Positions 22,853 through 62,300 of a stretch of DNA of 64,000 bases are shown here, piece after piece. A program made the position numbers and the translations under genes. The DNA is from Gordius sp. MW1 (taxonomy: Eukaryota > Nematomorpha > Gordioida > Gordea > Gordiidae). Location of the stretch: NCBI GenBank assembly GCA_964036665.1, contig OZ038531.1:1116001-1180000 (forward strand). Direction: 5' to 3'. Below the pieces are notes generated by a model. That model saw only the letters and a program-made list of their open reading frames with translations. It was not told the DNA's origin and did not search any database. Position 1 is the stretch's first letter. The number at the start of each line of letters is the position of its first letter.

Positions 22853-22950
22853 TTTTAATATGTTCCAATTGATCGTTAAATCCAACACGATTTCCATACA
22901 CGGATCAATGCCATCCGTTTAGTTATAGCGCGTTTATATATATTTTTTTT
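22853..22950 (+). mobile_element. 3' tail of an RLE-type LINE between two composite repeats
   Basis: About 22873-22932 matches 52606-52665, the 3' end of the LINE fragment at 52.3 kb (CGTTAAATCCAACACGATTT, then CCATACACGGATCAATGCC). Only the tail is present. Confidence 0.6.
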
Positions 22951-22970
22951 TCAAGTAAACATAAAAATTA

Positions 22971-39936: not shown

Positions 39937-42900
39937 ATGAGAACCCTCAAACTGAATGGGCACGTGGGATTCGATACTCTGCCCGAGCAATTAGTTAGCA
40001 AATCCGTTCGCCAAGGCTTCATATTCAACGTCCTATGCATAGGTTAGACTCGTTCAAAATGACATATATTCTAGTGTAATAAAAGAGGTTGGGGTTTTCT
40101 TTGGTCAACCTCTAGGCTTAGTCGAAATTTGAAAAACATACCAGAGCCCACCGCTAGTCTTAGTTAAACTAGAGGTAGACCAAACTAAACCCAGCCGTTT
40201 TTACAACACTAACGCAACGCATGCACACACATCAATTTCGCGTAAAAATCGTATATTAAGGTGGTTTTTTGCTTCTATTTCTACGCTTTTGATCTAAATA
40301 ATACCGTGTTTCTTGTTTTTTTTTGTGCAAGGTAACGACCTACATTTTAATATTTCTAAGTTCTATTACCGCTTACTCATACCACAGCTCAGGGGGCTGC
40401 AGATGGTATATGATGCCTTGCAAGGATTTTTAATTGATTTCCTCTTAGGTATTGAGGGGGAGGGGGAGCTAGTGTTAGTTATTCAATGAGAATTCAATAA
40501 TTATATGTGTATGTAAAAGTGTATGTTGTATTGTATGTGTGTGTGTGTAAAGAGTTTTGCGGCAGGATAAGTTTCCTTAACCCACTTGCAAACACGAGCC
40601 CGCGATCGCTACACGGTTATTTATAATTAATGTAAGCCTCCCCGGGGGACTTTGAGCGCCATCTTGAAATGTACTTTCAGTGATCAGTTAGGAGTGATTG
40701 AAATTTGGAAAAATAAATTCTAAGATAAGTCCTTAAATTAGTTTATAAAGCATTATTGGAAAAAGATGCTCGTAGCCTAATAGTAGTGTTTTAAAAGCGG
40801 CTGGGTTTTGTTTGGTCGACCTTTTGTTTCTGTCGACTAAACCTAAACGGACCAAAAAAATTTTGGTCTTTTTTTTTAGTGGACCACTAGGCTTAGTCGA
40901 AATTTGAAAAACAGACCAGAATCGACCCCAAACAAAATACAGCCGCGTTTTTACAACACTAGCCTATAGATAGTATTCCATGAAAATACGGCGCAAAAAT
41001 GTATCTTTATCATATCATAAAATGAAAATCTCTCTTTTTGCGCTCACAGGCGAAACGGGTCTGGGTAAGTCAACTCTGATGGATTCCCTCTTTAATACTT
41101 CCTTCGATTCTAGCCCGAGCCCTCACAATTTGCCCAACGTCTCCCTGCAATCCAAAACTTACGAATTACGCGAGGGCAATGTTAGCCTCAAACTTACCAT
41201 AGTGGATACCATAGGATACGGCGATCAAATCAACAAGGACGATAGGTTAGTCACGTGCCATTAAAGCTTAGCCGGCCCGGCCGGCTGCTCAGCCCAGGGG
41301 TTGGGTTTGGGTTTTTGGGCCGGACCCGGGCGGCTGGCATGTTTACAAGATTCCGGCCCATTTAGATATTTTATCATATAGTGGTGTATTATTTGTGCTC
41401 GCCTATTGCTTTGGGGTGATATAATATCTATTGAGTTCTTAAATCCTAAAAAAAGATCGAGAATTGAAGTTATAATTTTTGAAAATTATAACGAAGTTAC
41501 TGATAAAAATTTGAAAAATAATCATTTCTTGTCTGGCACCTATAATGATTTAGGTATGACTGGGCCTGGTTCGGGCAGAAAAATTTAAACAAAGCTTCTG
41601 AGGTAAGTGTCTGATCTATTTGAGTGAGACGTGAGGTTAATGATGCGATAGTAAGGCAACATAGGTATAAAAGATGCCTAGGCGTATCCAGGAGGTGGCA
41701 AGGAGGGGCGGCTGCCCCCCCCCCCCAAATCAAAAAATAGTCTTCAAACGTTAATATAATTTTGGCTAAAATTTTAAAAATATCATTTTGCCCCTCCCTA
41801 AATCATTATTACCCCCCCCCCCCCCTTGCTACCATTTTCTAAATTATAACACAACATTCCTACACGCGCTGCGAGTCGACCAGTCGAACCTAAGGTCTAT
41901 TCAACAAACTTAGCCGTTTTTAAAACACTAGCTGTGATTTAAATTAATTTGCTAACTCCACTCACTAAGAAAAATATCCGTTCCGTTTTGTCCTGTTTTG
42001 TCCTGTTGGTTTTTCTAAAGGTGCAATAGTATATTTATTTTTAATTTATAAAACATTTTTGTAAATAATATGTTACTAATCATTTATTATTTTTATGAAA
42101 TACATATTTTGCAAAGATGTGATAAATAAGATTTATATGTTACGAACCTACGTTTCTGGTGCCATAATTAATTGCCTAAAAATAAATGTAATCGAAAAAG
42201 CAACAAAGATAATTCCCGCTGTTTCAATTTTTATTAATTGATAATGTGTGTTTTTTATCGTTTAAAACGCAGCTGGAAACCGATCATAGAGTACATAGAC
42301 GATCAGTTCGAAAGTTATTTGCAGGAGGAACTGAAGATTAAAAGATCCCTGCATAACTACCACGATTCCAGAATCCATTGCTGCCTCTATTTCATCTCAC
42401 CCACCGGTCATTCGTAAGTTTTCCCATTTTTTCGAAGGCTTTTTGTTTCGCTTACTCTTCCCCGCCGGCGGCCATCTTGAATTGTACAAAAGGGCTTAAG
42501 CTATAATGCATTACCAAGATGAAGGGGGGGACTTTTGCTAATGATTGGCGACCGTTATTTTATTACATTGGTACGTACTAGTGTCGTAAAAAGACCTGGG
42601 TTTTGTTAACTCGACCTTTATTTCAACTAATACTAATGGCCGATTCACAAAAACGGAGCGAAACCTTCTGGTCTGTTTTTCAAATTTGGACTAACCCTAA
42701 AATCGATTAAGAATAACAGCTCTCAAAAATCGTTGGTCTGTTTTTGTTTAGTCGACCTCTAGGCCTAGTCGAAATATGAAAAACAGACCACAGTCGGCCC
42801 TTAGTCCTATTTGAACTAAAAGTCTACTAAACAAAACCCGGGTGTTTTTACAACACTACAGTCAAAACCGTTTAATTGCAAAGCCTTGGGCCTGAAAAAA

Positions 42901-45900
42901 TTCGCGATTAACCGATATTTCACGATTAAACGATGGAAATAAACGTATATGTACATTATATTAAATATTCATTTCTTACGCTTCGCAATAGAACGATATT
43001 TTATATAATTATCTGGTTGATTTAAGGACTCGATAACGTTTGTGAATATCCGATATTGTACTATTAAGCGATTTGTCAATAAACGATGTTTTTGTTCATA
43101 TTATCGTTTAAAAAAAACAAAATGGCGGTTAACTTCGCGATTAAAAGATTTTCGCGATAATCCGATTTGCGATTAAGTCGACTGTAGTACAAACTTTTTT
43201 AAAAATTAGCTCTAAACAAAGTTTAAAATCAAATCAAAAAGCGTGTTTTAACCAATAATTTCCCAATTTTTAACAACTACTACAGGTTGAAAACGTTAGA
43301 TTTGGTGGTTATGAGAAAGCTGGACTGCAAAGTGAACATAATACCCATCATATCCAAGGCTGATACAATATCTCGAACGGAGCTAAGCAAATTTAAGGCC
43401 CAAATAATGGGTGAATTAAAAGCGGCTGGGGTTCAAATTTACCAATTCCCCATAGATGACGAACAAATTGCGGAAACCAACGTGGAAATGAATGTAAATT
43501 TATTTTATTATAAATCAATTTATCCCCTTCTTTAAGGAAAAAATGAGAATTTAGTACAATTAGGCAAATGGTAAGATATTGTAAAGTAGATTTAACATGA
43601 TCATATACATTACATTGCTATCAAATAAGATAAATTAGAGTTTTTTTGTCGTGCTCGTGAATGTAATTATACCGTATAATAAGTTTATATTTTCTTTTTA
43701 CGTAAAAATATAGAAATTCAACAGTAAAAAAGATAAATATAATAAATAAATCATATATGTTGTTGTTTTCTTTGTTGTCTAATATTGACAAATGAATTGG
43801 TATTAAATTGACTTATGTCCTATTATTCCACATGTATTTGTACAATTATATTGATACAGATGCATTAAAAAATATAAACAATAAATCACAACTAGAAATA
43901 TAAACCTAACGAGATGTAAAATTTGGTAATTTAGCATATAGGGCCATTCCATGCCGTTTCGATCAAAAAAAGACGATTTTCGGCCCACGATCTCAGATCG
44001 AGCTGATATTTTCTGAGAATTTAGACCCTATAGGAAATAGTAATTTCTGAAAATTTTAGCCATTTTGGGCCAATATTTTTTAAGTTATGGACGCTAAAAT
44101 GGCCAAGCTCGAGTGCGTTTTACAAATTTTACTATTATTGCCATAATTTCAAAAGTATTGGTGCTAGCTTCATAATTTTTAGTGCATTTTAATCCATATA
44201 AAATTCTCTACCAGAAAAATGTAACCGAAAACCTCAAACTTTTGTGGTTAAAGTTTTGTGGTCAAATTTGTGAAAAACCAAAAAAACCTACTTTGCGACC
44301 AGCTATAATCACCAAATTCACCATGGGGATTCCCCTATGCCCAAATATCAAATTTCTAAAATAAAAAGTTTGGGGACGGCTATGGGGCGGTCAGGAAATC
44401 AAAAAAACACTAATAAATTAAATTAATTTATAGGTGGCGCTATAAACAACTATTACGAATCAAATATTTTAACTATACTTTATTACTAAAGGGCCACATC
44501 AAGATATATCTGATAAAATATAATTTTATGGAAAATTTTTAAATATCGACTGAATTTAAAACAACAATTTAAGAGAATTTGATATTACATTCTGACTTTT
44601 TAACCTAATTTTACAGGGTTAGATTACAATTGCTTGGCTTTTTATTGCCTTAAATGATATAAAATGGCAGCTGGCAGATCATCCTAGCTTTCTACAATTA
44701 AATGGTTAAAACCATATGTGCAACAACGCTATTAATTAAAACACAAAATCGATATCATATTAATTTTATTTGTTTCAACTGGCTATAATTTTATTAAAAT
44801 ACTTTAATTTCGTGTCAATTAATTTCTATGCCTAAAACCACTTATTGTTGTAATGCATTTAAGACCCATAAAGGTAAAATCAAAGGAATAAGAATTTTTT
44901 CTAAATGGATGACCTTTTTAGATCCCAATGCGAAATTATGTGACACATGTCGCAAATTAACTTATCAACGCCGGGATATTCCAAATATTAATCCGTCTGT
45001 TGATCCTTCTTTCTCCCCACCCCCAATAAATGAAATTATAGACAAAGCAGGACCATCTATTCAAGCCCTTAATACCTCATTATCTATGATTGCCGAATCC
45101 CCGATTAAAATGAAGAGATTCGTTGAAAAAAAATATCCATCAAGACAATTAGAAAAAATTAAAAAAAGCCTTGCCACAACCTTGGAAATCGTCGAGGAAA
45201 ACAAGCAATTATCGGTCGATTCTGAATTACTAGATAGTATGAAATCTAGTTTTCATACATTAAACAAAAGTAATAAATATCGGATTCTAACACTACTCCC
45301 CGATAGTTGGACGGCACAAAAAATCAAGACAATTTTTAATGTTTCATACTATATGGCAAAACGGGCTAAAAAATTGAAATTAGAAAAAGGAATTTTATCT
45401 ACCCCAAATCTGCAGCCAGGTAAAACATTAAGCAGTTTTGAGATAGAATTAGTCTAGCAATTTTATTTATCAGATGATTTCTCCCGAGTAATGGCAGGAA
45501 AGAAAGATTTTATTTCTATGCTTGTTAATACGAGGAAGACTAAAGTGCAAAAACGATTAGGTTTATTAAATCTGAAAGAACTTTATTTACAATTTAAAGA
45601 AGCGAATCCCAGTGTTCAACTTGGCTTTTCAAAGTTTGCAGAGTTAAGGCCCAAAAATTGCATTTTAGCTGGAGTAAGTGGCAGTCACAATGTCTGTGTT
45701 TGCCAATACCATCAGAATGTCAAATTAATGATGATCGGAGCAAATTTTAATAAATTAACTAGCACTGACATGTACCCTCTCAAAACATATAAGGAGGATA
45801 TATTAGCAAAAATTGTAATCCGCCTCTACCACTTTGTTATTTAGGAAAGTGTTTACATTGTCCAGGTGTCATTCATATTAAACAACGAATATCAGAAATA

Positions 45901-48900
45901 TTTAAATCGTCAGATATAGAATACATAAAATATAAACAATGGCTAAGTGTAGATAGGACAACCCTAGAAAATTTAAATAAACATAGTGAAGATTTTCTAG
46001 AGGATTTTTGCGAGAAAATTGGTCATTTATTATATCATTCCTTCATAGCCGAACAACAAGCAATGTTTTTAAAAAATTTGAAACTTAACTTAAATTGCTC
46101 TGAAGTAATAATTTTGAATGATTTTGCGGAAAACTATAGTTTTGTGGTGCAAGACTCGGTTCAGGCCTATCATTGGACCAATGTCCAGGCCACAATACAT
46201 CCCTTTGTTGCTTACTATAAAAAGGGCGATGAATTGAAATGTGCAACATTCATTATGATATCCGAATGTCTGCAGCATAATACTGCCAGCTATAGCGCAT
46301 TTCAAAAGCGTTTTATAAATTTTTTATTGCAAGAGCTCGATTTTCAACCAAAATTTTTTTACTATTTTTCAGATGGATCGGCCGCTCAATATAAAAATAG
46401 AAAGAATACAATTAATTTATGTCATCACATTGCTGATTATGGGATCAAGGCAGAATGGCATTTTTTTGCAACTTCTCATGGCAAAAGTCCTTGCGATGGT
46501 GCTGCCGGTACTTTAAAACGTTTGGCTTATAAGGCTAGTTTGCAAAGACCATTCGAAAATCAAATAACACAGCCTTTCGAATTGTTTGAATGGGCGAAAA
46601 GTAGTTTTGCTATAATAAGTTTTGGTTATATGACGAATGAGGAGTTTAAACAAGAGGAATTGAAACTTACCTCTCGATTCAATCGAGCAAAACCTATTTC
46701 TGGGATGCAAAAGCTACATGCTTTAATACATATTGACAGAAAGATAATTAAAACAAAGACGTATTCTAATTCAAGTGAATATTTTGAGGAAGAAATTCAA
46801 ATAGCGAATGAAATTGATTTTGAAAATCTAAATGGTTACGTGGCATGTAGATACCAGAATAAATGGTGGTTAGCCTTAATTGTAGACAAGGATCTAATAA
46901 ACGAATATATTGTCGCTCATCTTTTACATCCTAATGGTCCGGCAATATCTTTTTTTTTCCCTTCAAAATTAAATAAAATAAACATTAAAAAATCGGATGT
47001 TATAATGACAATGTCTCCGTACACAATCACTGGACGTAGTTACACACTTTCTGCACAAGAAATGGATTTGGCTACTACGCAACTACATAAAATCTAACTT
47101 GAGAAGACATTTATATTTATTATAATAAAGTATATTTATACAATTTTTATTGAACATGAATTAGATAATAAAAATTATTTATTACGGTATATCTTTAACG
47201 AATGCTCGAAGACAAAGTTTACCCTAACCCTGTATAATTTAGATAAAAAGTCATAATGTAATATCAATTTCCTTTAATTTGTTTTTAATTAAGTCAATAT
47301 TTAAGAATTTTTCATAAAATATTCCAACTTTGTTTATTTATCAAATATATCTTGATGTGGCCCTTTAGTAATAAAGTATAGTTAAAATATATGATTCGTA
47401 ATAGTTGTTTATAGCGCCACCTATAAATTAATTTAATTTTGTTTTTTGATTTCCTGACCACCCCATAGCCGTCCCCAAACTTTTTATTTTAGAAATTTGA
47501 TATTTGGGCATAGGGGAATCCCCATGGTGAATTTGGTGATTATAGCTGGTCGCGAAGTAGGTTTTTTTGGTTTTTCACAAATTTGACCACAAAACTTTAA
47601 CCACAAAAGTTTGAGGTTTTCGGTTACATTTTTCTGGTAGAGAATTTTATAAGGATTAAAATGCACTAAAAATTACGAAGCTAGCACAAATACTTTTCAA
47701 ATTATGGCAATAATAGTAAAATTTGTAAAACTCACTCGAGCGTGATTTTGGCCATTTTAGCGTCCATAACTTAAAATGTATTGGCCCACAATGGCTAAAA
47801 TTTTCAGAAATTACTATTTCCTATAGGGTCTAAATTCTCACAAAAAATCAGCTCGATCTGAGATGGTGGGCCGAAACCGTTTTGATATGTCATGGAATGG
47901 CCCTATAAAAGTTGCGGGATTTTAGACTTGTTTCTTGGTATTTCTAAAATTCATTAATTAATTTGATTAAAATTGTTTTTGGTGTTTTGAATGTAATTCA
48001 CAGAGTCTTCTTCCCTTTGCCGTAGTTGGTAGTACGGATTTCATTAAAGTTGGCAACAAGATGGTCAGAGCTCGACAATATCCGTGGGGAATAGTACAAG
48101 GCACGTCATTTCTATTAATCCATAATACTTAGCAAAAACGCAGAAAAACTTGGCAAATAATTGGTTCTGACTTTTCTGTTTTAGAGATCCATATATTTAT
48201 GCTGAAAATTTGAAAAATCGGTTCTAATCGGGTGGTTTGAAAAATAATTTTTTTAATTTTTTTATCTGACGGAATTTTTTTAAAATTGATTAAAGAACTT
48301 TTTAAAAATATTTTATCTTCCATGTATTTTTATTTTTTTTCCAATTCAAACTTCCAACAAAAAAATACACGTTTTTATTTTAAATTGTATATATTTTTGG
48401 GCGGGGAAAATATTAGTTGAAAATGAAAGTCATTGCGATTTCGTAAAATTGCGGGAAATGTTAATCCGCACCAATATGGAGGACATGTTGGAAAAGACTC
48501 ACACCAGTCATTATCATGTATATCGAGTGAAAAGGCTAGAAGCCATGGGATTCGTCGATTCGGGTCCCGACAAAGCGCCAATCACGTTGCAGGTAATCGT
48601 AATTCTAGCGCCCCATTAATCCCTTCAAATTACCCTCACTTTTTTGAATGTTCAAATTATTGCATTAGAACTCTAGATTTTGGATTGAAATAACTTCAAC
48701 TTATTGTTTTGTTTTTAGCAAAATATTGGTAAAAATTTTATTAAATTTATGTTTAACAAGATGCCCCAATAAATTATTTAACAGATTAATCTTTTTTGTT
48801 ATGTTTTTTTTTCACTTTTTTTTCTAAAGTTTTCTTATAAAAAAAATTTTAAAAATGGATATTTTTGAAATATTTTTTTTCTTACAGGAGAGTTATCAGC

Positions 48901-49642
48901 ATAAAAGACAAGAAATGATGGCCGAAATGAAGAAACGGGAAGAAGAGTTGAGGAAAAGTTTTGTGCAAAGAGTCAAAGATAAAGAACAAGAACTGAAAGA
49001 ATCTGAAAAAGAAGTGATTTTTTATTTCATTGCATTATTTAACTTTTTAACGTAAAAAAAGTTTTTAAACATTAGAATTTTATTTAAAATGTAAAAATCA
49101 TAGTTTAAATATAAATTTCAACGGCCTAAATAAAACGCTGGTCTTACATATCTATTAAAATGCCGATAAGTTAAGGTTGGGTCATATTAACCCCTTATCT
49201 TATGTCCCTCTTAGCTAAAAAATGTATATCAATCAAGGGTTGTGAAATTTGTTTTTTTACTTTATAGTGTAATATATTATTTTTGGACGAGTAAGTAGTA
49301 AAATTTAATATACACCTCTCAAAAAGTGGTTTTAGAGTTAGTGTTTTAAAGAACTTTTAAAAAATTGGTTTTTGTAGCAAAATATTTTTTGAAAAATTAC
49401 TTTTGGATGATCTAATGATTGTGAATTTTTGATTTTGTTTCCAAAAGTTGTACAGCAAATTTGAAAATTTGAAGAAAGTACATAACGATGATAAGCGAAA
49501 ATTGGAGGAAAAACGAAAAATGTTAGAACAAGATGTGGATGCATTAACTAGACGAAAACAACAGGCACAAACAGCTACGATGAAGAAAAAAAAGTGCCAG
49601 CATTTTAAAAAACATAATTATAGGAAAATTTTAAATAATTAA
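39937..49642 (+). CDS. SEPTIN6: Septin, SEPT6/8/11 group (8 exons found)
   Basis: GTP-binding filament protein of the cell cortex. Exons: 39937-40042 (an acceptor-like AG at 39920-39921 allows a separate upstream first exon), 41050-41245, 42273-42413, 43286-43493, 48004-48100, 48417-48592, 48888-49013, 49448-49642. All phases agree; the product from the first ATG is 414 residues (family about 430). It shows [12 protein letters not shown], the P-loop GETGLGKST (36-44), [12 protein letters not shown] (G3), ISKAD (G4) and ARQYPWG of the septin unique element. A C-terminal coiled coil spans about 309-400. The sequence resembles the SEPT6 group much more than SEPT2, 7 or 9. The intron after 48100 starts GC, not GT. 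Several introns hold transposons. Confidence 0.94.
40074..40209. mobile_element. TA-flanked MITE, family 'GTGTTGTAAAA', copy 3
   Basis: It starts GTGTAATAAAAGAGG and ends CCCAGCCGTTTTTACAACAC, with TA on both sides (40072-40073, 40210-40211). It lies 30 bp into the first septin intron found. Confidence 0.65.
40786..40960. mobile_element. TA-flanked MITE, family 'GTGTTGTAAAA', copy 4
   Basis: It starts GTGTTTTAAAAGCGGCTGGG and ends CAGCCGCGTTTTTACAACAC, with TA at 40784-40785 and 40961-40962. It is in a septin intron. Confidence 0.78.
41246..42272. other. Septin intron 2 with MITE fragments
   Basis: It contains a GC-rich patch (GCCGGCCCGGCCGGC at about 41270), a degenerate hAT-type MITE at about 41680-41840 (GCGTATCCAGGAGG on the left, long poly-C tracts) and the right half of a 'GTGTTGTAAAA' MITE ending at about 41928 (GCCGTTTTTAAAACACTA). 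Short ORFs here lack support. Confidence 0.5.
42581..42856. mobile_element. TA-flanked MITE, family 'GTGTTGTAAAA', copy 6
   Basis: It starts GTGTCGTAAAAAGACCTGGG and ends CCCGGGTGTTTTTACAACAC; TA flanks it at 42579-42580 and 42857-42858. Longer than other copies because its interior blocks (GGTCTGTTTTT, GTCGACC) are repeated. Confidence 0.75.
42859..43184. mobile_element. pogo/Tigger-like MITE
   Basis: The ends are CAGTC...GACTG with TA at 42857-42858 and 43185-43186. The interior repeats GCGATTAA and CGATTAAACGAT motifs. CAGTC ends with TA duplications fit pogo-type elements. It directly abuts the preceding MITE and shares its TA. Confidence 0.7.
43941..47903 (+). mobile_element. DNA transposon with inverted repeats of about 570 bp, inside septin intron 4
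   Basis: The left end GGGCCATTCCATG (43941) is mirrored by CATGGAATGGCCC (ending 47903); TATA lies outside both ends. The inverted match continues to about 44515 and from about 47338. The arms include a short ORF that appears in both orientations because it is part of the repeat. The element lies wholly within the septin intron 43494-48003 and encodes a transposase-like gene between the arms. Confidence 0.88.
44828..47097 (+). pseudogene. Transposase-like gene of the 4-kb transposon (broken)
   Basis: It starts MPKTTYCC with a Cys pattern (CC...CDTCRK), suggesting an N-terminal zinc-binding region. The C-terminal part (46063-47097) has [25 protein letters not shown] and [20 protein letters not shown], whose acidic residues could form a DDE/D site. 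Proteins with this core are widespread in invertebrate genomes, often unnamed; I do not assign a superfamily. An in-frame TAG at 45455-45457 and a frameshift between about 45844 and 46063 break it. The segment between the ORFs still encodes a related CLHCPG block, so the original protein was probably about 750 residues. Confidence 0.75.
48101..48102 (+). other. GC splice donor of a septin intron
   Basis: Exon 5 ends GTACAAG and the intron begins GCACGT. The phase-1 G joins TT at 48417 to give Val of the conserved VENESHCDF block. The nearest GT would cause a stop just after the junction. The acceptor is a normal AG. Confidence 0.75.
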
Positions 49643-52245
49643 TTGATTTTTTTGCAATTTTTAATAGTAGTTTTGAGAACTTATTTTAGTCCTTCTGGAG
49701 ATTTTAAAAATGAAATGATTTCTATTGTAGTTATTGTGTTTGAACAATTTATAATACTAATAGATAAACCACTTAATTAGCTTTAATTTTTATTTAGACA
49801 CATTTTTAAGGCTTTTTTTTAAATTAACGATAATATATCAAGAGTAATAAAAGTTATTTTAATTTAATGTATCTTGAGAAAATTTATATATAGAAGTTAT
49901 ATATATCTCAAAATATTATTCATAACTTTGTGGCTTTTTCTTTAGATCTTTCATGTGAAGACATCAATCACGGCCCTATCGTAACCAGTGTAGCATTTAA
50001 ATCGTGCAAAACAGACCTTATATTTTATACTATTTTATTATAAACTGCGAATGTAATTGAATTCAATACTAATTTTTATACTTAGTTTTATAGACATGAT
50101 TTATATACTTTTGTAAAAGTTTACTACAAATCTAAACACCACCACCTTTTTAACACTTAAATTTTAGATATTATATACGTTTCTTATCTAATAAAATTTG
50201 GAAAAGTACTGTATCAAATTTTTGCTTGTAGAATCTTCACTGTGTATTTAACTTTTTATAGTTTTAGTTTGGTTTAACCTGTAAAAAACAAATTGTCTAT
50301 ATATAATTTGTTTTAGTTAAAACAATTTTATGTGAAATAGATTTTAATATGGGATTTAACAGAATTTGATGCTCAGTTTTAATAATGAACACACATAATC
50401 ACTTGTAAGATATAAATAGTGGAAACTGGGTTAGGTTTGAGCCTGTGGCATTATATATCTTAACGTGCCATTTTTAACATCTAGGTTATTTTTATATAAG
50501 TATGATTTTAATACATAAATAACTCATTTAATTATTATATAGTATATAAAATTTATCAAACCAAAATTAGTTAACCAGAATTGAAAATAATTTGAAATGT
50601 AATATCGAATCTTCATTTTTCCGCCATTATGAAATGTGCACAAATATAGGAAGGACATGTAATTTATAGTAAATTTGGTTAAAGTGTTTTTAAAACTTTA
50701 TAATAATAACTATTGAACTAGTTAAAAGTTAAAAGCAGAATTAGAAAATATGTGTATATCAATTATACAATTTCATAAAAATAAAAAATAAATTGTTAAA
50801 ACGATTTAATGCCATCTGCATTAAACTAAATAATCATTTATTAACATTCGTTGCTTTTATTAATCGATGAGGAAGGTACATTTACTTTTATGTTTGATCC
50901 TTGGAAGGAAACTGCAGAAAAACATAGGAGATTGCCAAATTCATAATGGTGGATTGGATTTAACGATACAGGCTTTACCATATAAAACGTTTTACATGAA
51001 TTCCTTCCTTGAAACTTTCCAATTTTTTACTCAAATATAATCGGCCATTGCCATCGTTAGCCAAAATGTAAAAATAAAAATGTAAAAATTTGGTTTAAAA
51101 AGGCTTGTATTTTATAAAAAGATTAAAGAGACAAAGCTCTCTTTTTTGCATCCATCTACCCTTTTTTATACTGATAAAAAATTACACTGTTGGTGCCTTT
51201 TAGAGCTTATGTGCCCAGATAATTTTAATGTCTTACCATTTTAAAATTTAAAATCATGTGCATATCTAATGTATGGCACATTTTGTAAACTGTTAAACCG
51301 AATAAAAATTTAAATCCTTACATACAATACCTAATTTTGATTTTTATATCAGGTCCTATGATATCCAAAAATTAAAAAAACGTAAAGAATTTCATTAGTC
51401 GCTATAAAATATAACGATGTCTCCAAATTAAACAAAATAAAATTTAAAAAATGAGTAAAAATGCCCAATCTAATATACCATTGATAGGAACATGATAATT
51501 TATTTTTTGTTTGATATTTTAAATATTTTTAGACTTTAAAATTAAAAATAAATTCTTAATAAATAACTTACATTATTAACAATGTAACTATCATAATCAG
51601 GGTGATTAACTCATTTAAGAATGCGTGCAAATTAAAATCCATTAAAATATAAATAATTTCATTAAATTAATGTAAGAAGTATAACACAAACAAGGATTTG
51701 TTTAATATAATTCATAAATCAAAAAAATTAAAATATAAACAAATAGGTGTATTAAATTGGTGGATAATATAGGTTTTTATGCGATTTTAAATATATTTAA
51801 CATCAAATAAATCTATTAGATTATAAAATAAAAAACATAAAAATAATTAATTATATAAATAGTACAACGTAAATTATTGCTATTTCTCGCCCTCAAAACA
51901 TCGTAATTTTATATACTTATAAAACATAACTTGCTAACTATGAAATTCTATTATACACAATTTTTATAAGATCAAAATTTTTCAATTTCTCATATATTAC
52001 CTTGTGTTGCATGTTTATAAATAGATATATCTATTTTGTTTAAATAATATTCTAAATAAAAAAACTACTTTAATATGTTAAGGGTAGGAAAAGAATTTAT
52101 ATGAGATTATTTTTTTAAAATATTAACTAACCAACCCTTTTTATCAATGTTCATATTAAAATTACATAATTTTAAAAGCTTTAGGCTTTAATTTTAAATT
52201 ATATTTTTGATCTAACTTTAAAATCATTTAGTATTCATAGGAAGG
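49643..52245. other. AT-rich intergenic stretch after the septin
   Basis: No gene, RNA or recognised element. Very AT-rich with no coding bias. Confidence 0.45.
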
Positions 52246-52680
52246 CTGGCTACCCAAACACCTTGGAGCCCGTCTGCCTTAGCACTACCGATTGGAAAAG
52301 ACCTGACGGGGTCACACTCATCCCATGGTCCCGTGGACTGAATCTCACCTGGGACTTTACCACGGTCGACATATTTGCCCCATCCAACTCCTCTCCCGAC
52401 CTTATAGTCAGTGCAGAGAATAGGAAGACAGCCAAATATTCTTCCCTCGCGGACACAATATTCATTCCCGTAATGGCAACCACAATTAAAAATTTAGGCG
52501 TTGAAGCTCTCGCTCTCCTGAAACAAATTGGAAAAGCGATCTCCAGCGTCTCTTTAGATTTGAAAGAGTACTTTTTTATTAGGCAAAAGACCACATCAAT
52601 GGAAATCGTTAAATCCAACACGATTTCCATACACGGATCAATGCCATCCGTTTAGTTATAACGCGTTTTTATATTTTTTA
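52246..52680 (+). mobile_element. RLE-type LINE, 3' fragment
   Basis: The open frame 52263-52655 encodes the C-terminal endonuclease-like domain: RPDGVTLIPW, LTWDFTTVDIFAPSN, then AENRKTAKYSSL and IFIPVMATT. It matches the C-terminus of the LINE at 15-18 kb, with RPD intact. The 3' end has a hairpin (GGAAATCG at 52601-52608, CGATTTCC at 52621-52628), and about 52606-52665 recurs at 22873-22932. The element is 5'-truncated, as is common for LINE insertions. Confidence 0.8.
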
Positions 52681-53344
52681 GTCACGTATGTAATTCTTTT
52701 TTATACCAATTTCACATAAAAATAACTAAATATTTACGTATTTAAATTTAATTTAAACATTTAATATTAGTTTTGATAACATATCAACCCCTATCTATAC
52801 TAATCTTTAAAATAGATGAACATCTATGGCTTTTAGATCGTCTTTAATAAAATTATTGTAGAAATTTATTTCCATTTTTGAAAGGTTTTTTTTTAAAATG
52901 GGCAAAAGATTATGAAAAACTAGATGATTTGCACTACAAATAAAATAATTCAGCTGCAGCAGCTGAAGAGTTTGCACTTGCATTAACAGAATTCACTAAT
53001 TAAAAATTTGTATTTATTTCTTGTATTTAATACTTATAAAATTAATATTTTTTAGCGAAAAAATAAGAAATGGAACGATTTAAAATAGGATGTTATTTAA
53101 ATACACAGTAATAAATTAAAAAATGCTCAGTAAAATATACTCAATATTTTATTTTAGTGCCCAGTTAAAAATTCAAAATTTCTACATAAATTAACTTTAC
53201 AATGCTCAACTTTAAATTAATAATGCTCAGTATTTTTGCTAAAATGCTCAGTAATATAAATTCATAATCTGTGATATTGATTTGTTTTGCACTTATATTT
53301 TATAAATAATATTTTTTTTGGTATACAATTTTTTTTAAATAAAT

Positions 53345-53945
53345 TAAGATTTGCCCTCCTCCCTTTTATTGTCGCGGGTTTCCCCTCCCCCTCTTATTTT
53401 TTACCCTCACCAGGGGGGGGGGGTGATTTGCCCACCTTTTTTTTACCCTCTTTCTCACCCTGGGGGGGAGGGGATAAATTGCCCCGCCCCTCCCCACTTT
53501 TTTAACCTTCTTTCTCACCCGGGTGGGAGGGTGATTTGGGCCCCCCCCTTTTCACCCGGGGTGGGGGCCCTCCGGGGTAGAAAGAGGGCAGATAATAAAA
53601 TATAAGGGGAGAGGTGAAAAAAATCGGGGGGGGGGGGGGGGGGGGGTAGCAAATCAACCCCCGGATAAAAAATAGGGCAAAAAATAAGAGGGGGGGGCAA
53701 ATCAACCCTCCCCCCCCCCCTCCGGATGAGAAAGAGGGTAAAAAATAAGGGGAGGGGTAAAAAAAGAGGGGGGGGGGAAGCAAATTACCTTCCCCCCCCC
53801 TGGAGAGAAAGAGGGTAAAAAATAGGGGGGGGGGCAAATCACCCCCCTCCCCCCTGGTGAGAAAGAGGGTAAAAATTAAGGGGGAGGGGGGAAACCAACG
53901 GGACAAAAAAAGGGAGGGGGGGGGCAAAGTTCTTAATTTATATAT
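53345..53945. repeat. GC-rich array of pyrimidine/purine units in head-to-head orientation
   Basis: The left half repeats a unit like TTTTACCCTCTTTCTCACCC plus a poly-G block; the right half repeats its reverse complement (GGTGAGAAAGAGGGTAAAAA). The centre is near 53570-53640, with a G run of over 15. ORFs rich in Pro/Ser/Phe on both strands are products of the repeat. Confidence 0.75.
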
Positions 53946-54882
53946 GATATATCTAGCCAATTTTTATTTAAAGAATTTATTTAGCTCTACAAACGATAAT
54001 TTTGACAACTGTCACCAAAACAGACAAAAATAAATTTTACCCTTTTTCTTAGTCGAACTTTTAAGGTCGACTAAACAAAACCCATGTCTTTTTACCACAT
54101 AGATAACACATAGGATATCTATGAATTGACATTGCTGGTTCAAATCTCGCTTAAACATTAATTTTATTTTATTAAATTTCAGTTACTGAGCAAAAATTTA
54201 CTGAGCAACATAGAAATAATAACAGAACAAATAAATTAATTACTGAGCAAATAATCAAATTACTGAACATTAAATTATCTGAGCATTTGAAAATTTTACT
54301 GAACATTTAATTATTCTATTGAGCAATTGATTATTCTACTGAGCAAAAATTAAATTCTAGGCACAACAATTTGTTCTCTTTAAAATATTGAAAAATACAA
54401 GTATTTAGTCTAAAGAGGCGCTGTCTATAAACATTTATTTTCCTTATTGTTAATTTCATAATTTCTCCATTTTTTAAAGATTCCTTGGCGATAATTTTTT
54501 ATTTTCTATAATAAAACAATGTTATTATTGAATGTGCTGACATCTAGAAAGTGAATATAAAAATAATTCAGGATACATTCTTTAAACAAACAGGATAAAA
54601 AATAAAAGAAATTATTTACGTTAAAATTACGTAATACAAAAATAAATAATTAAAAGGGTTATAATTTTATTTTCTAGAAAGTCGCCAAAAGATTCTTGGG
54701 GATATAATAACTTTTTAAATACAGGAATTTTTAATTAATAATTATAAAAGGTCATTTGATAGATTTTATATAATGTTTAACAAAATATAATCAATAATTT
54801 AAAATTTTGGGGTATAAGCTAATTTTAAATTTCATATTTTAATACAATTTTTTTAATATTATTTTTTTTTAATTTTCTAAAG
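53946..54882. other. AT-rich stretch before the micro-exon gene
   Basis: About 54040-54100 is a partial 'GTGTTGTAAAA' MITE (GGTCGACTAAACAAAACCC, then TTTTTACCACA). About 54185-54345 repeats TACTGAGCAA-like words. The first exon(s) and promoter of the micro-exon gene should be here or further left, but no start could be supported. Confidence 0.4.
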
Positions 54883-57800
54883 GTATTGCCAGAGCTCTGC
54901 ATGAGGAAACAATACTTAATGGAGTTGAGGGTGTGTTTTATACATGAATTATACAATTATAACATTCTGAAATTTAAATATTAAACCAAATTTAATATTT
55001 ACAATAAAAATAATTTTATAAAAAATTTAAATATATATTAATATCAATTATTTAAAATTATTTTGTTTAAGATTAAAATATCTTTTAGTAAATTTATAAT
55101 GGGTTTTATAAGGGATGAACACAAAGACTATCACACAGCTTTACAATGAAATCTTTAAAGAAGCTGAATTTCAAAGCAAGAATAAATTTTGAGATAATTT
55201 TATTCAAAATAAAAACAATATTTTATATTTAAAATTCTTAAAATAATATCTCATAACTTATAATTTAATTACAAAAATTAAATCTATACAAATATTTTTT
55301 TGTATGAAACACAAAATCTAGCGAAAGAAGAAAATATAAACTTTTTAGATACAGAAACATCTGAACATGAATTATCGGACGGTAAGAATTTTTAAACTTA
55401 AGATTATTATTAAAGAATTAGTTTGGGGTACATCTGACCCCAGCGCACCAATTTTCTACACCGTGATTTGTTCACTTTCTTTTTGATCGTCATATTAAAC
55501 AGATTCTTCCGACAGTGAAACGGAGAATGAGATTTCTGATAGTATAGGTAGTAAATGTTTAAAATAAATTTAAGTTAATAAAAAACACACAAAATTTGTG
55601 GCTCTAATCAAATAAATAATTTATTAAAAAATAAATTATATATGAAAGAAGATAATATAATTAAATACTTATTTTGTATTAATTATTAGAAATTTAATTT
55701 ATTTTATTTTAATTGGTATCTGATCTTCTTTATATAGCAAGCTCTGACAGTGAAAGTGTAGAATCTGATAGCATCAAAAGTTCTAAATTTTTAAATTTCT
55801 TAAAATTTATTTTTATTTAAATTCAATTAAATTCAAATAAATTTTGGTTTACCAGGTGAATTATCAGATGGAGAAGAGATGAATGGGGCACCAGAAAGTG
55901 AAAATGAAAGTAAATTATTATTTAATTTATACTAAAATTTTCAATAAATTTCTTAAATTTTTTTATTTTCATTTTCATTTTAAGATGAGGGGGTTGTTGA
56001 AGAAGAAATTGCTGGCTTAAATTTATAGCACCATATTTAAATTTAGGTATTTGAATATTTTTAAACTTTTTAGATAAATTTTGTTAAAAAGAATTTTTAT
56101 TATTATCTTAATTGAAATTTTAAAGAAATAGAGGGAGTGAATCCATTTTCCTTAATGCAAAGTATGAACACTAAAATTAAATACTTATGATTTTTTCTAT
56201 GAATCATTATTTACATTCAATTTAATTTAATATATTTTAATAAATTAGCTACTAATGGAATATTGAGAAGTATTTTATATCAAACTAATCCTGATAAATT
56301 ATAAATTTTAATTTCCAAATGTTTCGATTTCTAGGGCTATTCGGATGTGCTTCAAGTTAATAAATTGCCCACAAATTCATATTTAAATTATATTTACAGG
56401 ACTTGAAAGCTTATTCAGCGGTATAATATTATCTATTCCATTTATTTGTATTTTTAAGATATTTCTAATCTTAGATTAGGTAAAAATTTATTAATTCTCT
56501 TTACCCATTTATTGAAATTAAAATTAAATTTTTTATTCTTTGCATTCAGATTATCAATGGGCTTTAAATGGTAAAATTTAGTTTTCCAATTTATATAATA
56601 ATTCTCCCCCCCCCTATTAGTTCTCAATGAAGATGGTAAGATAATAATTCAATATTACGTTGGAGAGCAAAACTATTTTAAAAATATTTTTTATCTAAAA
56701 ATTATAAATTTTAATTTGAGTATTAAACCCTTAGGTGTAGTAAATTTAGCTGAAGGTATCCAACATATTTTAACTAATAAACTTATAGAATTTGCGAAAA
56801 AAATTACATTGAAAAAACAAAATTTTCATTCAGTTTTAGGACGTTCGATATTCTATGCATACTATTTTTACAAGAATACTAGCATTGCTGTGTAATTTGT
56901 TAAACGCAGATTTTAATCAAGGTACGTATCATTTAATAGCAACTTTTTCAAGCCTTAATTTTTTATTGAAACTAAAACAGTTCAAGAAATACTTTTAAAT
57001 AGTAAGTTAAATTAAATTACAATATGGAGGATTTGTTAATCAACCGGTAAACTTTTGCAGATTCTGGTGGAGTTTTTCGTTGTGAACACGAATATATATT
57101 TTATTATTTTGCTATACGTCTTTCTGAAATATTTACTGTTGAAGTTGCTACTACAAACGGGACCGGGTCAAAATAGCAGAAAAAAAACAGCAGAATTGGT
57201 CAGAACTGGTCAGATCAAGATTGGTCAGGAGGGTTAAGGTTTGGGTTAGTGTTTTAGGTCAGCGTTTTAGGTTAAAGTCAGGGTTAGGATTAGATGCACA
57301 TCAAATTCCCTCCCCATTTGAGATTTAATTCTAATATATTGATTATCTAAAATCTTGTTCTGACCAGTTCTGACGAATTCTGCTGTTTTTTTCTGGTATT
57401 TTGACCCCGATTCCTACAAACAGTTTGCCGGTTGATTTTTCTTGTTGAACCGTGTTATCTAAATTTTCAAAAAAAATTTTCAATCTTTTAGGTTTGAGAG
57501 TCAGAATAAAAAGTAATAATATTAAACTAAATATTACAAAACAAATATTTAATAAGATTACATTAAAATTTTAATTAATTTTACGAAGGATTAATGCCAG
57601 ATATTAAAGGTATTGTCCATTTTTGTCCGAATTCATAGAAAATATTAACCCTGATTTTCATAATATGATTTTTGAATATAATACATTTGTGTATTTTTAA
57701 GGAGTCTTTAATTCTATAACAGGTAAATGTTATGAATATTCATAGAGGCATGCCTAGCCATTTGATTAAATAAATAGCTTTTAAAAAATTTTATATCTTT

Positions 57801-58201
57801 ATTTAAACAATTAAAAATTATTTATAGTGAAATGTATGCTAGTTACATTCAGATTTATGAAATTAAAAACTTCTCATGAAACCTTAAAATAATTGTTTTC
57901 CTGAGTATATTAAATGATATTTTTAATGTTCACGGAATTGGCAATCTTATGGATGGTATAAAATTTCTATTCATAGCATACTTTGTTTTTCATAAAATAT
58001 TCTTAAATTTACTTTAGAATTAAAAAAAATTAACCCGAACCTTTGGGATAAAAAACTTAAGCAAAAATTATATTTTTTAGATCCAGCATTAAAAGCAGGT
58101 ATTAAATTTCAAATCTATAGACAATTTAAAACCTAAAATTATTATCGAAATGTTTTTATAATTTAACGCTCATTTTAGTTGAACAAAATCGTTTTATATA
58201 A
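54883..58201 (+). CDS. Micro-exon gene: about 22 symmetric phase-1 exons
   Basis: Exons: 54883-54930, 55113-55175, 55322-55381, 55503-55547, 55738-55779, 55856-55909, 55985-56028 (cassette with stop), 56126-56161, 56249-56269, 56335-56355, 56400-56420, 56459-56479, 56550-56570, 56621-56635, 56735-56755, 56910-56921, 56981-57001, 57492-57512, 57589-57609, 57702-57722, 58018-58098, 58179-58201 (TAA). Apart from the two stop-bearing exons, every one is a multiple of three, starts two bases into a codon and ends after base one. Ten are exactly 21 nt. Donors are GT except GC after 55175. The first block is acidic (ELSDG, SSDSETENE, SSDSESVES); the second is short mixed modules (RLESLFS, DYQWALN, VQEILLN). 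The shared phase and open frame across so many sites are unlikely by chance. The start exon was not found. The design recalls schistosome MEGs; no protein family is recognised. Confidence 0.72.
57039..57437. mobile_element. Repeat with ATCAACCGG ends, carrying a nested MITE
   Basis: ATCAACCGGTAAACT on the left pairs with AGTTTGCCGGTTGAT on the right. The interior holds the dispersed TTTGCAG-GTGAACAC repeat found near 20.97 and 25.05 kb. It lies in the intron 57002-57491 of the micro-exon gene. Confidence 0.55.
57159..57413. mobile_element. MITE, 255 bp, 8-bp duplication CTACAAAC
   Basis: The ends GGGACCGGGTCAAAATA and, on the complement, GGAATCGGGGTCAAAATA begin inverted repeats of about 55 bp containing CAGCAGAATT and GTCAGAACTGGTCAGA. 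CTACAAAC flanks it exactly (57151-57158, 57414-57421). The interior, TTAGGTCAGCGTTTTAGGTT to TCCCCATTTGAGATTTAAT, matches the interior of 37926-38164 in reverse. Confidence 0.82.
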
Positions 58202-59816
58202 ATAACTACTTTTTATAAAATTTTATCATTATTGCTGCCAATCGTTATTTCCTAACTTTTATATCTTTCAAGCCATGTTAATAGCGATTTAAAAATTTTA
58301 ATTGGATGTAAAAGCGTTAGTAGAACTTGTGCCGATTGTATTAGTACAATAAAAGTTTAAACATATTAGATTAAGCTAAAATTTAAAATGTTTTTATAAG
58401 GTCCGCAATATTTTTCGAAAAGATAATGTAGAATAAAAGGCAGATTTTGGCTAAAATCCTTCTAACAAGTCATAAATTGAAATTATTGTTTATGTCTTAA
58501 AAGTCGGATTTGCTTAAATTTTTCTTCTGCCCGAGTCCGCCCAAACGCTTTAAGTGTCCGCCAGGTCATGCCAAATCATTTTAGCTCCTCGAAGTATCTC
58601 GTCCCAAATGATAATATCTTTCATTTTTAGCGATAATTTTGTTATACATTGCAGAAACCGTAAATTTTGTTCTTTTGGATTAGAACGACGATTAATAAAT
58701 ATTATACAATTATAGGAAAAGTGACAAAATATTACACTAGAGCAAAGTCTCACTTAGCCCGAATTCCCCTATCTTGTTATGGTGCCCGCCCTAGCCCGCC
58801 AAAAAATCTAAATTAAAGTCGATCGGCCTGTTTGGCAATTGGGCCGAGCGGGCAATTTTGAGCAGCGGGCTGGGCCAGTCTTTCATGGTTTCTGATATGA
58901 CTAACCTTGCTCATAAGAGATAAGATTGGATCATTAAAATTAGTAGAGGTAAATGGAATTTGATATTTAGGACTGCAGAAGGCCATCTTCAGGGAAAAAG
59001 TTAAGATATCGCCCCCCCCCAAAAAAAATAAAAACTTTTGATTAATTAACAGTAAATAATAATAGTATAAACTGTTTTGATTTATGGGTCATTACAATAA
59101 TTCAATGGCTTATCCAACACATAAGCATCCCTCATTATATTTAAAATTTAATAAGGGTCTATGCTGCAAGGTTACTAATAAAATCTAATCAACATATTTG
59201 GAGCTTTTAAATAAACTCTTTATCAAACCCTTGTTCATTAAACGCACATAGCACGTTTTTAGAGCACAACTTTGATTCGACATTAAGGGCCAACGTGTTA
59301 ATTTTATGCTATAACCATCTTCTGATTTAAACCTAGATATATTAAATGTGTGATACCTCTCTTACTAATATTATATTTTAGGAGGTTATAATGGTGGTTT
59401 GTTGCGAGAGTAAAGAGAAATGCTACTAGAATATAGAATAAATGATTATATTTATGATGAATTATATTCTAAATAGCAGGTAAATTTTTTTGAATAATAA
59501 AGACAATTGACCTTAGACATTATCAAGCTACCATCAAAATCATTCAAATGTATTATTATACTCACTCTAAAATATACATACACTTATAACAATCAATAAG
59601 TAATAGAAAATTCAAATTTACTATAGGAGCATAGAGTGGCTATATCTATTACGAATGACTACAAATTATAATTAAGGAGTCTAAGGTTGTAAGTTATACC
59701 TATTTATTAGTGAAGAACACTTAATTAATTTATAACAATTTTTTGTACACTCTCAGTATCATATACGCATGTAACGTATTACACTTTTTCTAACATCACC
59801 ACTGTAAAGCGCAAGA
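58202..59816. other. Intergenic stretch between the micro-exon gene and UQCRQ
   Basis: No gene is recognised. A GC-rich patch of the GGGCCGAGCGGGC type lies at about 58820-58880. The UQCRQ promoter should be just left of 59817; no clear TATA box. Confidence 0.4.
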
Positions 59817-60269
59817 ATGGGTCACGAATTTGGGAATTTGGCTAAAGTTAAAGGTGTAACGACGTATTCATTATCACCTTATGAGCAACGGGCATTTGCT
59901 GGATACTTTTCTAAGGGTATACCTAGAAACCTATCCTTACTTGCCCATAGGATTCAATATTTAGCACGTAATCAAAACTTATATTGATTTTATAAATATG
60001 CTATATTAATTTCAATATTTAAGCAGCTTAAGGTATAAAGCATGTTTACTTTTATTACTCAATTACTTAATAATTTTGTTTGCTTTGTTACTGTACATAC
60101 AAACTTTTATATAATATTTTAAAATGGATTATTGTACTACAACAATATTTTTTGTTGAATAGCATTCATTTTTACCTACTTCATTATTGATTGGTCAAAA
60201 AAGCAATATGAACGCAACATAAGGAAAGATCCCAAGTTATACGAAGAAGTTGACAAGGATTTTGAATAA
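59817..60269 (+). CDS. UQCRQ: UQCRQ, cytochrome bc1 complex subunit 8
   Basis: Small subunit of respiratory complex III in the mitochondrial inner membrane. Two exons, 59817-59967 and 60163-60269, join in phase 1 to give 85 residues (human 82). The start MGHEFGNLAKVKGV, the block YSLSPYEQRAF...KGIP, the single membrane helix (PFIFTYFIIDW) and the tail KQYERNIRKDPKLYE all align with the QCR8/UQCRQ family. The stop codon is inside AATAAA (60265-60270), which may double as the poly(A) signal. WBP4 converges from the other strand, with stops only 64 bp apart. Confidence 0.93.
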
Positions 60270-60333
60270 ATTATTTTAATGCACAGTTGATTCAAAATTA
60301 TAGAGATATTTACAATGTATTTTAACATATAAA

Positions 60334-61582
60334 TCAATCTTCTTGTGAAACTCTTATGCTTTTATTAATTTTTTTCTTCTTAATAAATGTGTTTGCAGCT
60401 GGATTAGATTCTTGTGGTAACACTTCTTCATTAAATGTTTTTTCCTTAAATACTATTTCTTGGTCTAATTTCACATTGACTTCATATGCCTCGTTAGAAA
60501 CATTAGTAGGTGTTTTGTACGTTTTTTGATTTTGTGAAACAATCGGCAATTGTAAGTCAACGGGAGTGTTGTAAACAATTTCTGTGTTTTTTCTAGATTA
60601 TTGATATATATTAATATGCATTCAAAGCAATAAAGTGATCAAAGCAAATTTGGTTTAAATGTTTAAAAATATGCCATTTAGAATGCTAACTTAAAAAATA
60701 ATGTCATTAAGTACAAACAATCACAATATTATAGTATATATCAAAGTAACGTCAAAAATTAATATGTAATTAAATATTCCCTCTTAATAAAATTAATATA
60801 TTTTAAAGGATTTATAAATTAGTTCCCAAAATAGGTATGCCCTAAATATTAAAAAGTGTATGTTATTTTTAAAAATGTCTGTATAGGCTTTAGGGGTTTA
60901 AATAAGAAATTACCAATTTTAATTGGAGGGTAAAGGACTATTAAATATGAAAATATTTATTAAATATATAATTTTTTATAGATGTTATAATTCAACCTAA
61001 ACAATTTATATGAGTATATACTTTTCAACTGCTATCCATTTGCCAATTGCTGGAGTATGAACTATTTCTTTATCTCTTTTGGTTGGAATTTTATTATTAC
61101 CCTTTTTAACTTTTTTATTTGATGTCTGAGGTTTGTCATCATCTAATTCTAGATTTCACAATTTAGGGTATACAAAAACAATGTGCAACCTCGTTTAGAA
61201 TTTGTGTCTTCATCCTCTACTAAATCTTCTTCAACATCTTTTTTATGAGATTTGAGAGCAGCCTAGATTGTAAGAACAAATTCATAAATTATACTTGTTC
61301 AATTTGGAGCATACATTTTTCGTAATCTTTCAATTGTTTGTCCTTCATTATATTAGCTTTGCCTATTTGACAAATTTTCATCTTCACATTGTCTTGATGA
61401 TTTTTGCCTTTCTCATGAATTTGTACACTCTAAACAACATTCACTAAGCAAATTTAAAGTTTACATTTATGTTATCTGAGAACCAACATTTGCACAATTC
61501 ACAAAACCTTTTTGGTTGTGATTTCCAAACTGTAGTCCTTAATAAGATGCTAAAGTTTTATAATAAATTAAAAAACTTACAT
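60334..61582 (-). CDS. WBP4: WBP4 (FBP21) homologue with degenerate WW region
   Basis: Spliceosome-associated protein. Minus-strand exons: 61582-61581 (coding part AT), 61537-61465, 61429-61295, 61262-61190, 61148-61022, 60592-60334; all junctions agree in phase, giving 222 residues. The start codon is split AT|G by a 43-bp intron. Residues 5-25 (WKSQPKRFCELCKCWFSDN) and SVQIHEKGKNHQDNV form the U1-like zinc finger of WBP4, followed by a helix and an acidic linker. The C-terminus VFKEKTFNEE resembles the VFKEKT block of human WBP4. Human WBP4 has two WW domains; here only GKWIAVEKKNTEIVYNT hints at one, and the second Trp is absent. Introns 2 and 3 are 35 and 32 bp. Confidence 0.85.
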
Positions 61583-62300
61583 CGTTTGAAGTTTTCAGCT
61601 GAGTTTAGCACAAGATGTCAGTCATGAAAATACATATTTTCTAAATTGTTAATATTTACATTGTCAATTTAAGATTTCTTGTGATTTTTCATATTAATTA
61701 TGGCAATGATAAAGTGAGAATTTGGTAGTTTGGTTTATGGAATAACTTTCATGATAGAGTAAATTGGCGCAAATATTGATTGCATTTCTGCTCTAAGTTT
61801 CAGATAAAAAACCATTAAATCTTATGATTCATAAAATCCAAGTCAAATCCCGATCTTGTCTCAAAAATCGAGACGAGACGAGAATTTGAAAAATTTAGGG
61901 GAGATAGAGAGGAAAATTTTTATTTGTTATTTAGATTGTCATGTATTAAGATAGAAATACAGAAGTGAGCAGATAAAACAAAAGCTAGTGAGGGCAGGGT
62001 AAAAAAATAGAAGTGTTTTAAGACCATATGCAAAATAAAATTAATGAATCCTCTGCGTTTTATAATCACTTAGCCTGTTATTGTAAGAAAGAAAGTAATA
62101 AATCATCTACGTTATAGTCGCGTGACTTTTTATTTATAAAAAGGCAACAACCTGACGAGACAATTGGGGATTTTTTCAGAAAGATCTCGGATTAAAAATT
62201 TCTTTATTGACCATCATAATATAGTAAATTTTGTTATGTAAATTTTTATTTGTAATTCACATTTAGGATGTTAAATATTAATTTAATTGTAATACCTTTA
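61583..62300 (-). other. WBP4 5' leader and upstream region
   Basis: Sequence just above 61582 is the WBP4 5' exon and promoter side. Otherwise no gene is recognised. Confidence 0.35.

Follow-up and report, generated by a model that had tools for sequence, protein, structure and literature searches.

A chain of phase-1 micro-exons at 54883–58201 and its possible kinship with bicycle-type effector genes

We analysed a 64,000-nucleotide stretch of DNA (contig OZ038531.1, positions 1,116,001 to 1,180,000 of the forward strand; hereafter the window, with position 1 as its first letter) and read from the sequence, at 54883–58201 on the + strand, a series of 20 intervals of 12–63 nt in which every length was a multiple of three and the frame stayed open throughout. 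All 20 entered at codon position 2 and exited after codon position 1 (phase 1-1), and a terminal exon of 23 nt, whose TAA stop ended at 58201, closed the chain. About 22 phase-1 micro-exons had been proposed here in an earlier note on the same DNA, and the proposal was borne out by a model of 20 symmetric exons with open frame and lengths of 3n, a stop exon and perhaps a 21st symmetric exon. Our analysis indicates that the locus is almost certainly a real protein-coding micro-exon gene, which may well encode a secreted effector of the bicycle type known from aphids, phylloxerids and coccids.

Statistical tests and the exon model

The bare pattern of AG...GT intervals, open and divisible by three, chained 24 times in 3450 nt compared with 17.1 ± 3.0 (maximum 22) in 40 dinucleotide shuffles, a criterion too permissive to be convincing by itself. 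When the splice sites were weighted with generic matrices, the phase-1 chain of 3n lengths scored 63.5, far above 1000 dinucleotide shuffles (mean 5.6, maximum 29.5) and 500 sequences drawn from an order-4 Markov model that had been fitted to 46 AT-rich blocks of the window (mean 5.0, maximum 21.0). A simulation of this kind had been named earlier as a possible refutation of the chain; once run, it left the bare criterion weak and set the splice-weighted chain well apart from random sequence. The matrices were not trained on the window and stayed fixed across tests; they were written after the region had been read by eye, and the exon penalty was lowered after frame-agnostic runs. With the penalty set to 0, 2 or 4, the score of the phase-1 chain was 63.5, 35.5 or 17.0, and the best of 60 shuffles at each setting reached 15.5, 10.1 or 7.7, respectively. 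The top six of 212 tiles from both strands of the window all overlapped the locus, and the next tile reached 29.8. Controls with the other length classes, run on this sequence in the phase-1 frame, scored 7.5 (3n+1) and 3.2 (3n+2), and the two other frames with 3n lengths scored 34.8 and 19.6.

Frame-blind AG...GT pairs pointed the same way. With a combined splice score ≥0, 34 of 61 pairs had a length divisible by three (binomial p = 0.0006), and the phase-1 frame was open in 28 of these 34, compared with 11 of 34 in each other frame. Exactly 21 nt was the length of 8 of the 61 pairs, other lengths averaging 0.77 (Poisson p = 1.5e-6), and of 2 of the 13 pairs at the strictest threshold (p = 0.011), pairs being taken as independent in the 21-nt statistics although some share sites. 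Similarly, 6 of the 18 intervals in an unsupervised chain were 21 nt long, versus 7% of 2505 intervals in 1000 shuffles, with at most two in any one.

Eleven intervals of the unsupervised chain were kept identical in the model: exons 1 (54883–54930, 48 nt, phase 1-1), 4 (55503–55547, 45 nt, Ser/Asp/Glu-rich and resembling exon 5), 6 (55856–55909, 54 nt, acidic), 10 (56400–56420, 21 nt), 11 (56550–56570, 21 nt, with a Tyr lying between two Cys), 12 (56621–56635, 15 nt), 13 (56735–56755, 21 nt), 14 (56910–56921, 12 nt), 17 (57492–57512, 21 nt), 18 (57589–57609, 21 nt) and 19 (57702–57722, 21 nt). One edge was shifted in four others, namely exon 3 (55322–55381, 60 nt, acidic; unsupervised start 55355), exon 5 (55738–55779, 42 nt, Ser/Asp/Glu-rich, weak donor; unsupervised end 55749), exon 9 (56335–56355, 21 nt, first Cys; unsupervised end 56346) and exon 20 (58081–58098, 18 nt; unsupervised start 58087), and exons 3, 9 and 20 were also recovered by a retrained-matrix scan. 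The remaining three intervals were removed: 56029–56046, together with 57180–57257 and 57368–57430, which lay inside or across a short inverted-repeat transposon copy of 255 bp (57159–57413, no strand assigned) flanked by an 8-bp direct repeat. This copy lies within the intron that separates exons 16 and 17 and leaves the modelled frame uninterrupted. Exons 2 (55113–55175, 63 nt), 7 (56126–56161, 36 nt), 8 (56249–56269, 21 nt), 15 (56981–57001, 21 nt) and 16 (57061–57081, 21 nt, its last base opening the second Cys codon) were placed by reading; exons 2 (weak) and 16 occur in the model only, and exons 7, 8 and 15 were also recovered by the retrained scan, whose matrices had been trained on them. 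The last exon of the model occupies 58179–58201.

The same scan favoured a 21-nt interval at 56459–56479 (+ strand, open in phase 1) over exon 10. The two are separated by 38 nt, and the minimum intron of the scan was 40 nt; both may be exons. Retrained-matrix scans found no further micro-exon chain at 49580–54900 (phase-1 score 2.2) or 58200–62000 (0.2). The symmetric exons of the model measure 12, 15, 18, 21 (ten exons), 36, 42, 45, 48, 54, 60 and 63 nt, with introns of 44–410 nt and a GC content of 34% in exons versus 21% in introns. Internal exons of ≤36 nt make up 291 of the 626 modelled nt (46%, or 50% when the 23-nt last exon is counted), the first exon being left out on both sides of the ratio.

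The encoded protein

The modelled part of the protein comprises 207 residues with two dissimilar halves. The first 103 residues contain 30 Asp/Glu, 16 Ser and 5 Lys/Arg and no Cys, and the last 104 contain both Cys of the modelled part and one Tyr. By hand count, and without the possible extra exon, the Tyr lies 11 positions after the first Cys and the second Cys 36 positions after the Tyr, a spacing that could be due to chance. Exons 4 and 5 were alike (z = 6.9, unmatched in 300 shuffles), the sole strong case among the five exon pairs whose score sufficed for testing. In their aligned stretch two Ser codons differ, by eye, synonymously only (TCC/TCT and AGT/AGC), and the other codons differ in sense; the synonymous Ser codons hint that protein sequence may have been kept between the two exons.

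Measured at 100 degrees per residue, the helical hydrophobic moment of the second half exceeded that of shuffles (p = 0.008), and at 160 degrees it did not (p = 0.45); the first half showed no such helical excess (p = 0.32). In the 21-nt exons, hydrophobic residues recur at residue 2 and residues 5–6 of each seven. This heptad register gave p = 0.00025 for ten exons and six whole codons and p = 0.033 without the last codon, which is shaped by the donor consensus; with the possible extra exon added the values were 0.0019 and 0.047, so that the register is only marginal once the donor-shaped codon is omitted. A doubtful extension is that these exons act as helix cassettes, each adding seven residues, or two helical turns, with hydrophobic places fixed relative to the splice junction, so that addition, loss or skipping of an exon would keep both frame and helix face.

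The earlier note had called the peptide new and its exons skippable in any combination without frameshift. Its novelty was upheld in PDB, Pfam and NCBIfam, where the spliced peptide had no relative above cut-off. Matches set aside were Tubulin_2 in Pfam (E = 0.045) and NF005525 in NCBIfam (E = 0.055), neither of them anywhere near the curated cut-off, and three PDB matches (E = 0.78–1.1) that were taken as chance. One of these three was a local likeness of the 56550–58201 peptide to per os infectivity factor 5 of baculoviruses (E = 0.86), a family that the Pfam search did not return. As for skipping, the frame is indeed kept, but a stop arises at a new junction in one of the 19 single skips and in 375 of the 2000 random exon subsets, leaving 18 and 1625 open, respectively. 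Because some of the new junction codons are stops, skipping in any combination is too strong a claim.

Gene ends and neighbourhood

The only candidate first exon (50867–50948, + strand) has an ATG, a hydrophobic signal-like stretch and a weak phase-1 GT donor, and is held with low confidence; it was the best of 12 ATG-to-phase-1-donor candidates in 49580–54900. Its use would create a 3.9-kb first intron with retroelement remains (52185–52652). Exon 2 also contains an ATG and is a possible start. At the 3′ end, an AATAAA at 58348–58353 (+ strand) beyond the last exon is a possible poly(A) signal, a weak one because the motif occurs 173 times on the + strand of the window.

Upstream of the micro-exons, on the same strand, lies a septin gene of the SEPT6/Drosophila Sep2 type (41049–49570, ~41.0–49.6 kb) with introns of up to ~4.5 kb. 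For its first 257 residues the best solved relative was Drosophila Sep2 (441.8 bits; human SEPT11, 428.7), and the highest score overall went to human SEPT6 (533 bits), the Drosophila chain being truncated and shorter; human SEPT6 also led when one C-terminal exon was searched alone. Identity was 77% to Drosophila, 70–73% to human and Ciona and, lowest, 62% to Schistosoma. A six-sequence tree over the 257 residues, with a single flatworm sequence, joined the septin to Drosophila Sep2 in all 100 resamplings, on a long branch. Because of this grouping an arthropod host appears likely and a schistosome host does not. Neither the repeat pattern nor the transposon proteins of the window separated an aphid relative from other AT-rich arthropods. 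One septin intron holds large transposon-like open frames (44798–47094) with no Pfam match, the larger without relatives in viral contigs, which we take to resemble repeated proteins of aphid and Hydra genomes.

CpG is hardly depleted in the window (0.92), and GC ranges from 22 to 40% among 2-kb blocks. Between the septin and the micro-exons, a repeat rich in G-runs and C-runs with inverted repeats spans 53340–53930. Downstream, 59817–60266 contains a gene for the cytochrome b-c1 subunit UcrQ, with a Pfam match of 1e-13 for its first exon and of 0.0044, below the cut-off, for its last; its middle exon was not found by eye. Farther away, a retroelement, presumably Gypsy-like, extends across several frames at 1845–5236 with reverse transcriptase and integrase zinc-binding domains, and a DUF7041 domain (4.5e-19), common in retroelement gag proteins, lies at 7054–7491 on the minus strand. 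A reverse transcriptase at 15222–17942, which we assume to be non-LTR-like, resembles by eye in its C-terminal part the open frame at 52185–52652, and tandem arrays with a 128–129-bp unit occur in three places within 21999–24249 and 31858–32264. Scans for tRNA genes and against Rfam gave no match.

Competing explanations and known micro-exon families

On balance, a secreted effector is the most likely role of the locus because it is built like the genes of the bicycle class, which encode fast-evolving salivary effectors, and we regard the chances that it belongs to this aphid, phylloxera and coccid class as evenly poised. Under this explanation, about 20 phase-1 symmetric exons on the + strand would be joined by GT-AG splicing, with one GC-AG intron in the model, into an mRNA with ~0.7 kb of coding sequence for a protein of at least 207 residues, and the host would belong to that insect group. 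The acidic Ser/Asp/Glu-rich half would be flexible, and the amphipathic-helix half, encoded largely by 7-residue (21-nt) exons, would form a stable scaffold, perhaps closed by a Cys-Cys bridge; the product would be secreted in saliva. Uniform phase would make gain, loss, copying and skipping of exons frame-neutral, allowing the gene to change fast. The published bicycle classifier (Stern and Han 2022, PMC9168663; pass >0.72) scored each of four model versions at P > 0.99999, conditional on that exon model, and did not pass two controls: one was the set of modelled exons with their phase counted as 1, the other the septin, whose edges were approximate.

Several observations weigh against this explanation, some touching the gene model and others its assignment. 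Five of the 20 exons (those starting at 55113, 56126, 56249, 56981 and 57061) were put in by reading, because of which the chain as a whole, rather than each added exon, was tested; exon 2 requires a GC donor, and the donors of exons 5 and 16 are weak. Chains built without a frame rule, on splice score alone, missed the gene, with 0 to 3 exons at the first penalties; with lowered penalties and a window-wide background, 3n lengths were found in 6 of 12, 5 of 9, 5 of 9, 3 of 5, 1 of 3 and 0 of 2 exons. A 3n+1 control chain on the minus strand at 13976–18000, in a retroelement, scored 38.2, the highest off-locus value among the 25 tiles listed, which shows that real DNA can exceed shuffles. As to assignment, the classifier had Hormaphis, a single species, as its training set and was applied to sap-sucking insects, the scope within which its P applies, and its input here was an exon model itself selected in the bicycle phase; the acidic low-complexity half is not among the bicycle features described in the sources cited here; the first-exon candidate was equalled in 9.5% of 200 shuffles, with thresholds set after the candidate had been seen; and the septin evidence reaches only as far as nearer Drosophila than human, Ciona or Schistosoma. 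The searches in PDB, Pfam and NCBIfam described above yielded no family, nor did a search of the second half against PHROGs. Lack of sequence similarity is, however, also expected of divergent bicycle genes. The modest bare interval count, the failure of frame-agnostic chains to recover the gene and the 38.2 chain would all suit a generous reading of AT-rich noncoding DNA, an explanation that the splice-weighted, length-class and frame-specific tests contradict and that we consider highly improbable.

If the gene is real, it could have arisen independently in another, perhaps parasitic, arthropod, with no common ancestry with bicycle genes or with the micro-exon genes (MEGs) of schistosomes. 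The septin, only Drosophila-like and on a long branch, the lack of a family match, and the acidic half together with the many 21-nt exons are consistent with such an origin, but the locus passed the bicycle classifier and shares the phase of bicycle genes. Other animals are AT-rich too. Nevertheless, low GC is a point of likeness to aphids and phylloxera (27.2–30.1%; PMC7376646) and argues in the same direction, leaving an independent origin a tentative second explanation. Alternatively, the gene may be intact and encode a non-secreted acidic protein, its phase-1 micro-exons stemming from tandem exon duplication only. This would fit the low-confidence signal-peptide candidate at 50867 with its 9.5% of equal shuffles, the ATG of exon 2 as start and the 30 Asp/Glu of the first half; it is nonetheless unlikely, given that just a single pair of exons was clearly alike and that bicycle proteins and MEGs with this layout are described as secreted or membrane-exposed. 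A flatworm-type MEG, producing many secreted variants through exon skipping, would account for the symmetric micro-exons, for the many exon subsets that stay open and for an amphipathic helix, which is also predicted in MEG-26 (PMC5825161). Set against it are a septin that every one of 100 resamplings joined to Drosophila and that is least like its Schistosoma counterpart, the 46% rather than ~80% of coding sequence in exons of ≤36 nt, and introns of 44–410 nt compared with 0.1–5 kb (PMC10526429), and we judge it very unlikely.

Genes with such a layout are difficult targets for gene finders and sequence search, and the known ones are candidate effectors of sap-suckers and secreted schistosome products. 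Our splice- and frame-aware test on raw sequence suggests that they may be findable without RNA. Should the doubtful cassette reading hold and the host lie outside aphids, phylloxerans and scale insects, arthropods would have invented micro-exon effectors separately at this locus; among the matches listed in the open-licence literature, no micro-exon effector genes were found in arthropods other than aphids, phylloxera and coccids. The surplus of 21-nt exons whose hydrophobic positions are in register may also help to explain, in a form open to testing, why symmetric micro-exons are well suited to helical proteins that evolve fast.

Schistosome MEGs, cited earlier as the precedent for this locus, share with it small symmetric exons, a short novel protein and, in at least one family, an amphipathic helix. 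A 2015 description has them apparently restricted to platyhelminths (PMC4350168). Their exons are mostly 15 bp, with introns of 0.1–5 kb (PMC10526429), and about 80% of the coding sequence lies in exons of 6–36 bp (PMC5825161), compared with a modal exon of 21 nt, shorter introns and the lower small-exon share at our locus, next to a septin that is not schistosome-like. The precedent thus stands for the common symmetric layout and not for closest kinship, which the septin tree and the small-exon share speak against, and MEGs are an analogy at best.

Bicycle genes, described from aphids, phylloxerids and coccids, come closer: codon position 2 is where nearly all of their internal exons begin, and the Hormaphis genes have ~17 exons on average (PMC9168663). 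All 20 exons here share that entry position, by construction and with the frame-blind support of 28 versus 11 of 34. The megacycle genes of aphids, structurally classed with them, likewise combine many micro-exons with internal repetition, but reach >100 exons and ~2000 residues compared with ~20 exons at this locus (PMC9168663). Bicycle proteins are helical and saposin-like, with a conserved Cys bridge from helix 1 to helix 4′, and some are without Cys (PMC13041983). Our locus differs from them in having only one C...Y...C arrangement and only a candidate signal peptide, and resembles them in its many micro-exons, its predicted helical half, its lack of sequence match to known domains and, possibly, the C...Y...C itself.

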